The position numbers were made by a program, and so were the translations under genes. A stretch of DNA of 24,918 nucleotides from a virus. Position 1 is the first letter of the stretch, and each line of letters starts with the position of its first letter. Positions 6,791-11,587 of this stretch are shown here, in pieces. Under the pieces are notes generated by a model. It searched no databases. It had not been told where the DNA came from and worked only from the letters and a program-made list of their open reading frames with translations. The stretch is from positions 1 to 24,918 of IMG/VR virus record IMGVR_UViG_3300022842_000059, one strand, 5' to 3'.

Positions 6791-7255
6791 ATGAATGAAC
6801 GAAACGATTACTTAATAATAGCTTTAGAAAAAGCTAGAAAAGAATTTAAGGAACTTAAAAAGTCAGGTAAAAACAATTTCTTTAAAACAGGAAATGGTAA
6901 GCCTCACGAATACAGTACCTTAAACGATATCTTCACTTCATGCAGGGAAGCATTAATGAATAATGATTTAAATATTATTTATAATGTTACTTATGAAGAT
7001 GGAATGAATTTTTTGATTACTAAACTTAATCACTTACCAAGTGGTCAAAAAGAAATATCAAAATCAATCTTAGGAAACTCAACAATGACAAGCCAAGCTA
7101 TGGGGTCTGCAATTACTTATATGCGTAGATACCATATTCAAGCTATGTTAAATCTTGAAGGCGATTTTGAAGATGATGGAAATGCAGCATCAGTAAAACC
7201 TGCACCAACACAACCGACCAATAATGGTCAACAACAAACCAAAGGAGGTTTATAA
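6791..7255 (+). CDS. erf: ERF-family single-strand annealing protein
   Basis: 154 residues. It matches the ERF superfamily in order and spacing: an N-terminal helix, Y41-S-T-L-N-D-I (the 'Y-x-x-L' region), then M104-G-S-A-I-T-Y-M-R-R-Y-H (104-115) and the acidic end G-D-F-E-D-D-G-N-A-A. ERF proteins anneal complementary single strands in phage recombination and genome circularisation. A Gln/Pro/Asn-rich tail follows. The ribosome site is AGGAGAACTAA, and its stop overlaps the next start. It opens a five-gene recombination block with SSB-like, HNH, exonuclease and resolvase-like genes. Confidence 0.88.
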   Translation: MNERNDYLIIALEKARKEFKELKKSGKNNFFKTGNGKPHEYSTLNDIFTSCREALMNNDLNIIYNVTYEDGMNFLITKLNHLPSGQKEISKSILGNSTMTSQAMGSAITYMRRYHIQAMLNLEGDFEDDGNAASVKPAPTQPTNNGQQQTKGGL

Positions 7256-7545: not shown

Positions 7546-7837
7546 AATCATCAAGGATAAGAAATTTCTTATGTGGGTATGCGAGTTACCTTGCTACCCA
7601 TGTGAGATAGAGGGTGTTAGCAATTATCACATGATAGTTGCACACCATTTGCAGGGAAGAAATCGTATAGGTATGGGTTTAAGACATGACCCTAATTCTA
7701 TTCCAATATGCGATTTTCATCACAGACAAATTCACGAGAAAATGGGTGAGAGAAACTTTTGGGATAAAATAGGTGTTGAACCTATACATTACGCAAACGA
7801 ACTTTATGAACAATACAAGGAGAGAAATAATGGATAA
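7529..7837 (+). CDS. HNH-type nuclease (DUF968/Ref-like)
   Basis: 102 residues from ATG 7529, which overlaps the previous gene by 17 bases. The same frame is open from ATG 7451, but the extra 26 residues are low-complexity and duplicate another gene's DNA, so the later start is chosen. Key residues: C22-x2-C25, H39-H40 (AHH-L-Q-G), P59-x-C61 and H64-H65 followed by H69. This C-x2-C / HH / C-x2-HH pattern is that of small phage HNH nucleases related to Ref/YbcO, which cut DNA during recombination, sometimes with RecA. It fits the recombination block. Confidence 0.8.
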   Translation: MISHSKIIKDKKFLMWVCELPCYPCEIEGVSNYHMIVAHHLQGRNRIGMGLRHDPNSIPICDFHHRQIHEKMGERNFWDKIGVEPIHYANELYEQYKERNNG

Positions 7838-8606
7838 AAAGAACTTCGAAAAATGGGGAATGGAAAGAATGAGTTATAGTAGATTAAATTCATTTAAGAA
7901 TTACCCCTGTCAATTTATTATTAATAAAATCTATGGCATAGATACTGGCACAAATCCTGCAATGATTACTGGCAATATCGTAGAGGAAATGCTGCATAAC
8001 TTTATGAAGGGTGAAGAACTACCTTTAAAAACCCATTTAGACGAGTTTGCAGAGCGATTAGCAGACTTTCATGACCAAGAACAGGTGGTAAAATATTTAG
8101 AGTTAATACCTCAATTTTTCTCTCAATGTAAGCCACTATTTGAGAAGATGGGTAATTATAAGCTACATTCTTATCAAGAAGAGCTACATACAGAAATATT
8201 AGGTATTAAATTTATAGGTTATTCTGATTTTGTATTTTCTGTAGTTAATGATGAAGGTGAAGAACAGCTTTTAGTCTATGACTTAAAGACTAAAGGTAGA
8301 ATGGCAATCAATCATTCCGACAAGCTGCAACAATGGGTATACAAAAAAGCACTAGAAGAAAAGTACAATAAAAAGGTGATTTGTAATCTCTTCATTGTCA
8401 CTCCAAAAAAGCACCATTTCGAGGAAATTGTTTTTGAAGATGCTCATAAGATTGAGATACATAACATTTTAAAAGGCATGAATAAAGCATTTGAGTTATG
8501 CAATGATAAAAAAGACTTTGCTTATCTTTATCAACCTGACACAAGCAGCTTTATTTGGAATAGTCCTAATATGCTTAAAGCAAGAAAAGAGATTTGGGGT
8601 GTATAA
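7830..8606 (+). CDS. PD-(D/E)XK exonuclease, Cas4/RecB-like
   Basis: 258 residues from ATG 7830, which has a clear AAGGAG site. An upstream in-frame ATG at 7773 lies inside the HNH gene and is less likely. The order of motifs is typical: an N-terminal S-Y-S-R-L-N-S-F...P-C (15-27), the G49-N-I-V-E-E region (motif I), D133 (in G-Y-S-D-F-V), D151-L-K153 (the D-x-K core in V-Y-D-L-K-T-K) and a downstream Q168-x2-Y171. Such enzymes resect DNA ends to give the single strands on which ERF acts. I see no complete four-Cys iron-sulphur cluster, unlike classical Cas4. Confidence 0.85.
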   Translation: MDKKNFEKWGMERMSYSRLNSFKNYPCQFIINKIYGIDTGTNPAMITGNIVEEMLHNFMKGEELPLKTHLDEFAERLADFHDQEQVVKYLELIPQFFSQCKPLFEKMGNYKLHSYQEELHTEILGIKFIGYSDFVFSVVNDEGEEQLLVYDLKTKGRMAINHSDKLQQWVYKKALEEKYNKKVICNLFIVTPKKHHFEEIVFEDAHKIEIHNILKGMNKAFELCNDKKDFAYLYQPDTSSFIWNSPNMLKARKEIWGV

Positions 8607-9245: not shown

Positions 9246-9437
9246 ATGGTTAATAAGAAAAGCTCTAAAAAGCCTGACCCAAATACTTTAATGGAATGTA
9301 TGAAATGTAAAAGAACTTATACATTACATATGATGTTACAGATTTATAGTTGGTTAGACGATTATAAATGTATTAGATGTTATAACAAAGGAGAACTAAA
9401 AAATGACTACTATGCCAAAAATGAACTTATGGATTGA
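9246..9437 (+). CDS. Small zinc-ribbon protein
   Basis: 63 residues, with C18-x2-C21 (M-K-C-K) and C42-x2-C45 (C-I-R-C), a classical four-Cys zinc site with a 20-residue spacer. There is no good ribosome site, so it probably depends on the gene just upstream. Its end overlaps the replication gene by 35 bases and carries that gene's ribosome site. DNA binding or a helper role in replication is likely but unproven. Confidence 0.6.
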   Translation: MVNKKSSKKPDPNTLMECMKCKRTYTLHMMLQIYSWLDDYKCIRCYNKGELKNDYYAKNELMD

Positions 9438-10224
9438 TGCTTTCAATTCAGATACTTGCTTTTTAACTAATGATGAATTAGGGATTTATTTTAGATTAAT
9501 ATTTTATGCTTGGTCTAAAGAAGGATATTTGCCTGATGATAAAGAATTTATTCAAACTTTATGTCGTGATGCACAAAAGCCAAATAATGATAAGATAGAT
9601 AAGATATTAAAATTATATTGGACTTATGATGGCTCTGATTGGAACAAGGGTTGGTATCAAAAAAGACTAAGGGAAGAATATATAAGAGCAGTCAATACAA
9701 CTAATCAAAATAAACTTAATGGTTCTAGAGGTGGTCAAGTTACTGCACAGCGAACGCTAAGCGAACGCTCTAGCGAAACTGTAGCCTCTATATCTATATC
9801 TAAGTCTACATCTATATCTAATAATAAAGTATATACCTCTGAATTTAATATATTTTGGGAACTAGTAACCAATAAGGTCAGTAAAGGTCAGGCTTTAAAG
9901 AATTATAGTAAGATAGATAAAGATTGGTTAGAAAAACCTAAGGAACTAGCTAAATATTATAATGAATACTATGACTCTATTACTGAAAAGAAATATGCTA
10001 AACAACCTGCATTTTGGTTATCGGCTGAAAAGTATTTAGATGAAAGACCTACAGAAATATCTATGGCAGATGAAGAAACTTTAAAGCTGCAAGGGTGGGT
10101 AAAATCTTTTAAAAATCCAACTAATTTTTCTAAAGAATATGCAAAAAAACATAAAGGATTTGTAGAAAAAATGGTGGAAAAAGGAATGATTACAGAAGAA
10201 GATGTAAAAAACCTTTATTTATAG
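9403..10224 (+). CDS. Phage replication protein with DUF1376-type N-terminal domain
   Basis: 273 residues with an AAAGGAGAACTAA ribosome site. Residues about 8-110 match DUF1376: W10-I-D-A-F, L-T-N-D-E-L-G-I-Y-F-R-L, G-Y-L-P-D-D, and the basic R-L-R-E-E-Y followed by N-G-S-R-G-G. This domain is found on phage replication initiators and replisome organisers. Residues about 116-140 are a Ser/Thr linker encoded by striking DNA repeats (see 9749-9822). The C-terminal 130 residues, helical and basic, probably load the host helicase. By analogy with lambda O, it would bind an origin lying within its own gene. No helicase gene is visible in the window, so host helicase use is inferred. Confidence 0.75.
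   Translation: MTTMPKMNLWIDAFNSDTCFLTNDELGIYFRLIFYAWSKEGYLPDDKEFIQTLCRDAQKPNNDKIDKILKLYWTYDGSDWNKGWYQKRLREEYIRAVNTTNQNKLNGSRGGQVTAQRTLSERSSETVASISISKSTSISNNKVYTSEFNIFWELVTNKVSKGQALKNYSKIDKDWLEKPKELAKYYNEYYDSITEKKYAKQPAFWLSAEKYLDERPTEISMADEETLKLQGWVKSFKNPTNFSKEYAKKHKGFVEKMVEKGMITEEDVKNLYL
9749..9780. repeat. Palindromic repeats inside the replication gene (candidate origin iterons)
   Basis: AGCGAACGCT occurs at 9749-9758 and 9760-9769, and a half-copy TAGCGAAACT ends the set (9771-9780). Each full copy is itself an inverted repeat (AGCG-AA-CGCT). The full copies are 11 bases apart, about one helical turn, and so are read in different codon frames: the repetition is in the DNA, not the peptide. 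The block is G+C-rich compared with everything around it. Confidence 0.6.
9787..9822. repeat. Six tandem TCTAnn hexamers (candidate unwinding element)
   Basis: TCTATA, TCTATA, TCTAAG, TCTACA, TCTATA and TCTAAT follow each other without a gap and encode an Ile/Ser-rich linker. They start six bases after the palindromic repeats. Easily melted A/T-rich repeats beside iterons are the usual plan of a replication origin. Being a multiple of three, this part could also be a simple coding repeat. Confidence 0.55.
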
Positions 10225-10922: not shown

Positions 10923-11132
10923 TTGTCAAATCAACATATCTCATGTACCAATTTAGGTATGGAAAAAGATAATAATAATTTTTTTATCATTGAGGAAAAG
11001 AATGGAACACATTCAGCTATATTAAAATTTGCTAACTTTATAAGTAGAGAAGATGCACAAGATTTAATTGATAGCATTGTTACTGAACTTGGTTATGTGG
11101 GTACTATAATAGAGCCATATACAAAACATTAA
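10923..11132 (+). CDS. Small hypothetical protein, start uncertain
   Basis: The frame gives 69 residues from TTG 10923 or 57 from ATG 10959 (MEKDNNNFFIIEE). Neither has a good ribosome site. The region shared by both includes F-I-S-R-E-D-A-Q-D-L-I-D-S-I, an amphipathic helix typical of small phage proteins, and the stop overlaps the next ATG (TAATG). A 32-codon frame from ATG 10874 runs into this gene in another frame and could supply coupling. Function unknown. Confidence 0.5.
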   Translation: MSNQHISCTNLGMEKDNNNFFIIEEKNGTHSAILKFANFISREDAQDLIDSIVTELGYVGTIIEPYTKH

Positions 11133-11587
11133 TGATAGTCCAAGACAAAGCAATTACAGATATTAAGCCATACGAAAGAAATCCAAGAAAAAAAAAGGAT
11201 ATTAAGAAGGTTGCAGACTCAATTAAAGAGTTTGGTTGGCAACAACCCATAGTAGTAGATAGAGCAGGAGTCATTATTGCAGGTCATTCAAGATACGAAG
11301 CAGCTAAATTACTTGAATGTAATAGTATTCCTGTATTAATAGCAGACCTATCTCCTGAAAAAGCAAAGGCATATCGTATAGCAGACAACAAAACTAACGA
11401 ATTTAGTGAATGGGATTTTGGATTACTTCATAAAGAATTTGCAGATTTACTTGATAATAATTACGAATTGACTAATTTAGGATTTGATGAAACAGAACTA
11501 GAGGAGTTTGTAACATTTGATAAAGAAGAAGGTGTAAAGATTAAGACAGATAAAAGCTGTCCTAATTGTGGCACTAAATTAAAATAA
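11132..11587 (+). CDS. ParB/Sulfiredoxin-fold (ParB-like nuclease) protein with C-terminal zinc stub
   Basis: 151 residues. The ParB-like domain covers about 8-95: I11-K-P-Y-E-R-N-P-R, then I-K-E-F-G-W-Q-Q-P-I-V-V, then the signature I-I-A-G51-H-S-R54, and I-A-D-N-K-T-N-E. In phages this domain occurs alone or fused to DNA methylases, and next to terminase genes as here. It ends in C143-P-N-C146, a lone CxxC that could be half a zinc site. It may act in DNA modification, nicking or packaging. The function is not settled by sequence. It starts at a TAATG overlap. Confidence 0.85.
   Translation: MIVQDKAITDIKPYERNPRKKKDIKKVADSIKEFGWQQPIVVDRAGVIIAGHSRYEAAKLLECNSIPVLIADLSPEKAKAYRIADNKTNEFSEWDFGLLHKEFADLLDNNYELTNLGFDETELEEFVTFDKEEGVKIKTDKSCPNCGTKLK

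Follow-up and report, generated by a model that had tools for sequence, protein, structure and literature searches.

A candidate replication origin of lambda-like layout within a DUF1376-type phage initiator gene

The location of a phage replication origin within the gene for its own initiator is already known from lambda, in which the smallest fragment that can be unwound consists of two iterons and the A/T-rich tract (PMC7466680). Among other described systems, the Rac prophage of E. coli carries an active origin, oriJ (PMC3945230), and in Bacillus subtilis a short-period single-strand motif (the DnaA-trios/DnaD recognition element) adjoins the double-strand initiator boxes (PMC10201434). 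Many bacteria have phages and prophages that encode a DUF1376 protein, YdaU of E. coli K-12 being one example, and the domain is still listed as being of unknown function. In the literature that we searched, five papers name DUF1376, each a single time and never in a title or abstract, which bears out the remark of the initial annotation that in-gene origins of DUF1376 proteins are poorly described.

Iterons and a weak DNA tract within the gene at 9403-10224

We analyzed a virus record of 24,918 bases, referred to in full as the window, the terminase of which has its nearest relatives in Phage DSL-LC06 and pelagiphages. One of its genes encodes a member of the DUF1376 family: the protein scores 39.1 bits against PF07120 (gathering cut-off, 30.1) and also matches PHROG families for a primosomal protein (E 9.6e-18) and a replication initiation protein (E 7.7e-9). 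The features of this gene are as follows.

9403..10224, + strand: DUF1376-type replication initiator gene, 273 aa (Pfam PF07120, E 9.8e-10; PHROG matches)
9403..9726, + strand: N-terminal DUF1376 domain, aa 1-108, predicted winged-helix-like, proposed iteron binder (AlphaFold model, structural matches)
9749..9758, + strand: iteron 1, AGCGAACGCT (sequence, TRF)
9760..9769, + strand: iteron 2, AGCGAACGCT, starting 11 bp after iteron 1 and in a different codon frame (sequence, TRF)
9772..9777, + strand: half-iteron AGCGAA, 12 bp after iteron 2 (sequence)
9778..9786, + strand: spacer ACTGTAGCC, 9 nt, from iterons to tail (sequence)
9787..9822, + strand: six TCTAnn hexamers, proposed unwinding element (6-bp array, low duplex stability)
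9835..10221, + strand: C-terminal part, aa 145-273, proposed helicase or loader contact (PHROG 270, replication initiation protein, E 7.4e-7)

The coordinates and letters given for this block by the initial annotation are exact, as are its two copies, half-copy and six hexamers. The unit, however, is not the perfect palindrome that had been described: AGCGAACGCT is a dyad (AGCG-AA-CGCT) in which arms of 4 bp flank an AA centre that is asymmetric. Similarly, the hexamers do not follow the repeats at once, as the 9-nt spacer intervenes after the half-copy, and while copies 1 and 2 are indeed out of codon phase with each other, the half-copy shares the phase of copy 2.

We found that AGCGAACGCT has only two matches in the 24.9 kb even when up to one mismatch is allowed; none of 100 shuffled sequences contained two. 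When codons were shuffled with the peptide kept, two exact GCGAACGC-type sites arose in 0 of 2000 shuffles (null mean, 0.0075 per gene), and the repeat count of the linker was attained in 4 of 1000. TRF placed the sole 11-bp and the sole 6-bp tandem arrays of the whole window side by side at this block. By 40-bp duplex stability, the iterons lie at the 0.1st percentile of the window (most stable) and the hexamers at the 99.1-99.5th (least stable). A search of the window for other origins revealed no other compact iteron array; the DnaA box TTWTNCACA occurs five times, which is chance level, with the nearest match more than 3 kb away; in this respect the block is unlike a DnaA-dependent origin. 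The turn in GC skew that had been expected at the block is absent, the skew being monotonic, which is uninformative here, as almost all genes of the fragment share one strand.

In the AlphaFold model, the N-domain (residues 1-108) and the C-domain (from about residue 145) are joined by a disordered linker (residues 110-142, pLDDT <50), and the iteron/hexamer block (approximately residues 116-140) is encoded within this linker, as had been claimed. The N-domain most resembles winged-helix domains in VIA-align, with ORC first (Z 5.5) and the plasmid initiator 4pt7 at Z 4.2; these middling scores, none of them decisive, suggest a winged-helix-like fold. Foldseek returned nothing at E <1, a PDB sequence search found no relative and an NCBIfam search no meaningful match. 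PHROG 270 is matched by the C-terminal part and also by the O-like BcepIL02 protein. In addition, many O-like initiators align with the C-terminal part of one longer DUF1376 relative. Judged by these alignments, the DUF1376 C-terminal domain is one common to O-like initiators.

As with the lambda origin in gene O, dyad iterons (here at least two) lie mid-gene in the linker of an initiator, with an A/T-rich, easily melted tract adjoining them downstream. The units differ: those of the window are approximately 10 bp long and spaced at 11 bp, whereas those of lambda are 18-19 bp long with starts 20-24 bp apart, and the DUF1376-type tail is a 5-7-nt tandem repeat, unlike that of lambda. The proteins differ as well, as the N-domain of the window protein is DUF1376 and does not match the O-like families that lambda O matches (PHROG 277 and relatives). 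The block is thus lambda-like in layout, not by family membership; the original claim of a lambda-like origin holds for the layout and for the codon-shuffle signature of lambda O described below, but not for the N-terminus, which is no homologue of that of lambda O. The likeness to the DnaA-trios is one of plan only, with no shared motif in the tail of the window.

Recurrence of the block in relatives and across the family

We compared relatives of the gene codon by codon, using seven close relatives and a further set at about 50% identity. The linker peptides differ (AQRTLSERSSETVAS, AKRSLTERYTESVPS, AIAEPSQSERTAS, ANAEPTQSERTAS, DANAVRTHSERNTS), while the linker DNA has units of the form GCGAACGC, GCGATCGC, GCGACCGC or GCGTTCGC, for the most part in an 11-bp register, and then TCTAnn repeats. 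The 11-bp-phased GCGAWCGC units and the TCTAnn tract are kept down to about 50% protein identity, and over this range the prediction that the repeat DNA would be kept while the peptide varies is borne out. An exact unit of the GCGAACGC/GCGATCGC type is present in 13 of 15 representative genes, window included; the other two (L026 and L027) have degraded copies only. In relatives with the iteron type of the window, the spacer usually ends in GCC or GCT. Within the close set, the arms AGCG..CGCT of copy 1 are kept and its centre varies (AA, TT, AT); copy 2 reads ACCGAACGGT in one relative, with the dyad preserved, and is half-changed, with one arm lost, in others. Base for base, conservation of the iteron block in close relatives is not above that of its surroundings, and the case therefore rests on pattern and not on percent identity. 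Across the family, the serine codons of the tail tract are TCT in 69 of 69 cases, compared with 37 of 185 elsewhere in those genes. The nearest described relative, Pelagibacter phage HTVC112P (L037:5758-6552), has a CCTAnn tract in its linker with no recognisable iterons, in place of which there is a GCTAC...GTAGC inverted repeat. Some genes contain a second GCGAACGC pair inside the DUF1376-domain coding region, approximately 160-200 bp upstream of the linker cluster (L117:2607-2625, L085:3041-3059, L071:5892-5910).

We also used the Pfam model to gather DUF1376 genes from some 1,060 genomes, almost exclusively of Pseudomonadota, and counted exact 8-mer repeats, direct or inverted, in each region against synonymous codon shuffles within that region (threshold, about p 0.01). 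Repeats exceeded the shuffles in 25 of 54 linkers, about half thus falling below significance, compared with 1 of 54 regions coding for the DUF1376 domain and 2 of 36 coding for the C-terminal part. In total, the linkers contained 840 repeats against 201 expected, and the control regions 91 against 61 and 159 against 111. Four of the 54 genes (L164-L167) come from genomes first reached via the linker, which biases their selection; when these four are left out, 21 of 50 linkers exceed the shuffles. In lambda O the linker alone was flagged (0/1000), at the location of the annotated iterons, which indicates that the repeat test detects a known in-gene origin. The linkers of E. coli Rac YdaU, Vibrio phages 1.052.A and 234P9, Acinetobacter phiAC-1, Pseudomonas phPA-G and Thalassomonas BA3 were likewise flagged (0/1000 each); those of Vibrio phage 1.003.O and HTVC112P were not. 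Short-period tails passed the threshold in 13 of 54 linkers (control regions: 0/54 and 0/34), and 12 of these 13 tails are lower in G+C than their own gene.

The iteron units vary by gene (GCGAACGC, GTTSAAC, GGGAC/GTCCC, TGTCAC/GTGACG, ATGGCAA); L173, for example, has about six copies of GTTSAAC at 11 bp. We found that the iteron class is shared by 13 of 26 nearest neighbours in N-domain similarity (shuffled mean, 5.9; as high in 14 of 5000 shuffles), a correspondence that would fit recognition by the N-domain and could partly reflect common descent. L197 and L198 have DUF1376 domains that are 61% identical and iterons that differ (TGTSAC/GTGACG-type versus GCGAACGC-type), a contrast that suggests rapid switching of recognition.

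Like the window protein, E. coli Rac YdaU has a DUF1376 domain and a linker in which iterons precede short repeats, although its iteron sequence is different: the linker of the K-12 gene (L159:7120-7977) contains TGTTCAAACA twice and one inverse TGTTTGAACA, followed by AAAGAT-type repeats. This linker is a candidate for the Rac origin oriJ; we found no text that places oriJ within ydaU.

The Lin1244_N domain (PF14297; DUF4373 in some records) is a separate Pfam family, the N-domains of which are distant homologues of those of DUF1376 (hhalign 94%, E 1.2e-7). Many Lin1244_N initiators have GCGAACGC iterons in the same position as do DUF1376 genes, whereas LBR48 and EF62phi carry GCAATGC-type units instead. 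Among Lin1244_N phages, the repeat test flagged EF62phi and a Porphyromonas phage, with LBR48 borderline (52/1000).

We also scanned viral contigs for GCGAACGC-N3-GCGAACGC, blind to protein, and obtained at least 119 stretches. Of the 119 contigs among the matches listed, 101 have the site within an ORF whose N-domain is of DUF1376 or Lin1244_N type, and in 100 it falls C-terminal to that domain. The HMMs for these N-domains drew part of their sequences from 23 of these loci; leaving the 23 aside, the count is 78 of 96. Control pairs fell in DUF1376/Lin1244_N genes in 8 of 119 cases at 12-bp spacing, 4 of 89 at 10-bp spacing and 0 of 66 for a scrambled unit at 11 bp. In 68 distinct genes from the matches listed, the unit logo is (T/A)GCGAACGC(A) and successive units are 11 bp apart in 122 of 160 cases, a spacing that shifts the reading frame at each unit. 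One iteron type recurs in phages of 27-64% GC. In most of the linkers inspected, the units are followed by a short-period tract of varied sequence (CCAATA, CCAGACA, ACACAAG, GGAAAGTAAA, AGTATT). The period of the tail is 5, 6 or 7 nt depending on the phage, with no shared motif.

Proposed function and alternative explanations

The anatomy of the block, its maintenance at the level of DNA, its recurrence at one place across the family and its contrast in stability point, with high probability, to a phage replication origin inside its own initiator gene. In the mechanism that we propose, the winged-helix-like DUF1376 N-domain would bind the AGCGAACGCT iterons, and their 11-bp spacing would set successive iterons on one face of the helix. 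By analogy with lambda, the two perfect iterons would nucleate an initiator complex; the assembled complex would open the adjoining A/T-rich TCTAnn tract, and the C-terminal domain would recruit the replicative helicase or a helicase loader. We infer each of these steps, from protein binding through unwinding and helicase loading to initiation at the block. Because the tract lies downstream of the iterons, in the orientation seen in gene O, the arrangement fits a lambda-like mechanism.

The iterons might instead be an operator at which the protein, bound to its own gene, represses or times the replication operon, with the true origin elsewhere. Operators too typically show dyad units one helical turn apart, and several of the fold matches to the N-domain are MarR-type regulators. 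However, the block is not at a promoter but some 350 bp into the gene, and an operator needs no short-period A/T-rich tract, yet one adjoins the iterons. The layout also matches the lambda origin. We regard an operator in place of an origin as unlikely, although autoregulation could coexist with origin function. We consider it very unlikely that replication slippage in a flexible, low-complexity linker produced the repeats as a by-product, with selection on the peptide alone. Such an account would agree with the predicted disorder of the segment and with the hexamers, which are in frame and encode S-x-S-x-S, but the 11-bp units alter the frame each time, the repeats exceed those of peptide-preserving codon shuffles, the serines of the tail use TCT only, and one iteron persists at 27-64% GC while 10-bp, 12-bp and scrambled pairs are not enriched in DUF1376/Lin1244_N genes.

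A role in some other DNA process, such as recombination or attachment, packaging, or binding of the ParB-like protein whose gene is at 11132-11587, is brought to mind by the position of that ParB-N-domain gene 1 kb downstream and by a similar neighbour in HTVC112P. Across phages, however, the block stays within a DUF1376 or Lin1244_N gene, and its iteron type tends to track N-domain similarity, as the nearest-neighbour comparison above indicates; we judge this explanation very improbable.

Breadth of the family and neighbouring genes

With this result, DUF1376 acquires a probable function, that of an origin-binding initiator; the DNA bound by many of its members becomes predictable, as does the location of phage replication origins from sequence alone. 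We think it likely that DUF1376 and Lin1244_N make up one large superfamily of phage initiators with origins in their own interdomain linkers. On this view, the TGCGAACGCA iteron at 11 bp would have been kept despite wide differences in phage GC content while sister groups switched to others, so that specificity and origin would evolve as one movable cassette. How a site is read could be studied with the many initiator domains that occur naturally with their iterons, and the tails, with periods of 5, 6 and 7 nt, form a natural set of unwinding tracts. We found no description of this initiator family, its 11-bp spacing, its 5-7-nt tandem tail or its DUF1376/Lin1244_N breadth in a search that lay outside the subscription literature, where an earlier notice is possible; a search on the letters of GCGAACGC returned unrelated subjects only.

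We recognised neither a helicase nor a loader among the window genes tested against Pfam and PHROG. In named phages, the DUF1376 gene precedes one for a DnaB-like helicase (L221), an IstB-like ATPase (L222) or a primase/helicase (L224); a DnaC-like loader is encoded after the Lin1244_N gene (L228, L230). The neighbours of the initiator gene in the window encode an ERF-type annealing protein (6791-7255), a PD-(D/E)XK nuclease (7773-8606) and a ParB-N protein (11132-11587). In HTVC112P, the gene order is also DUF1376, ParB-like, terminase.
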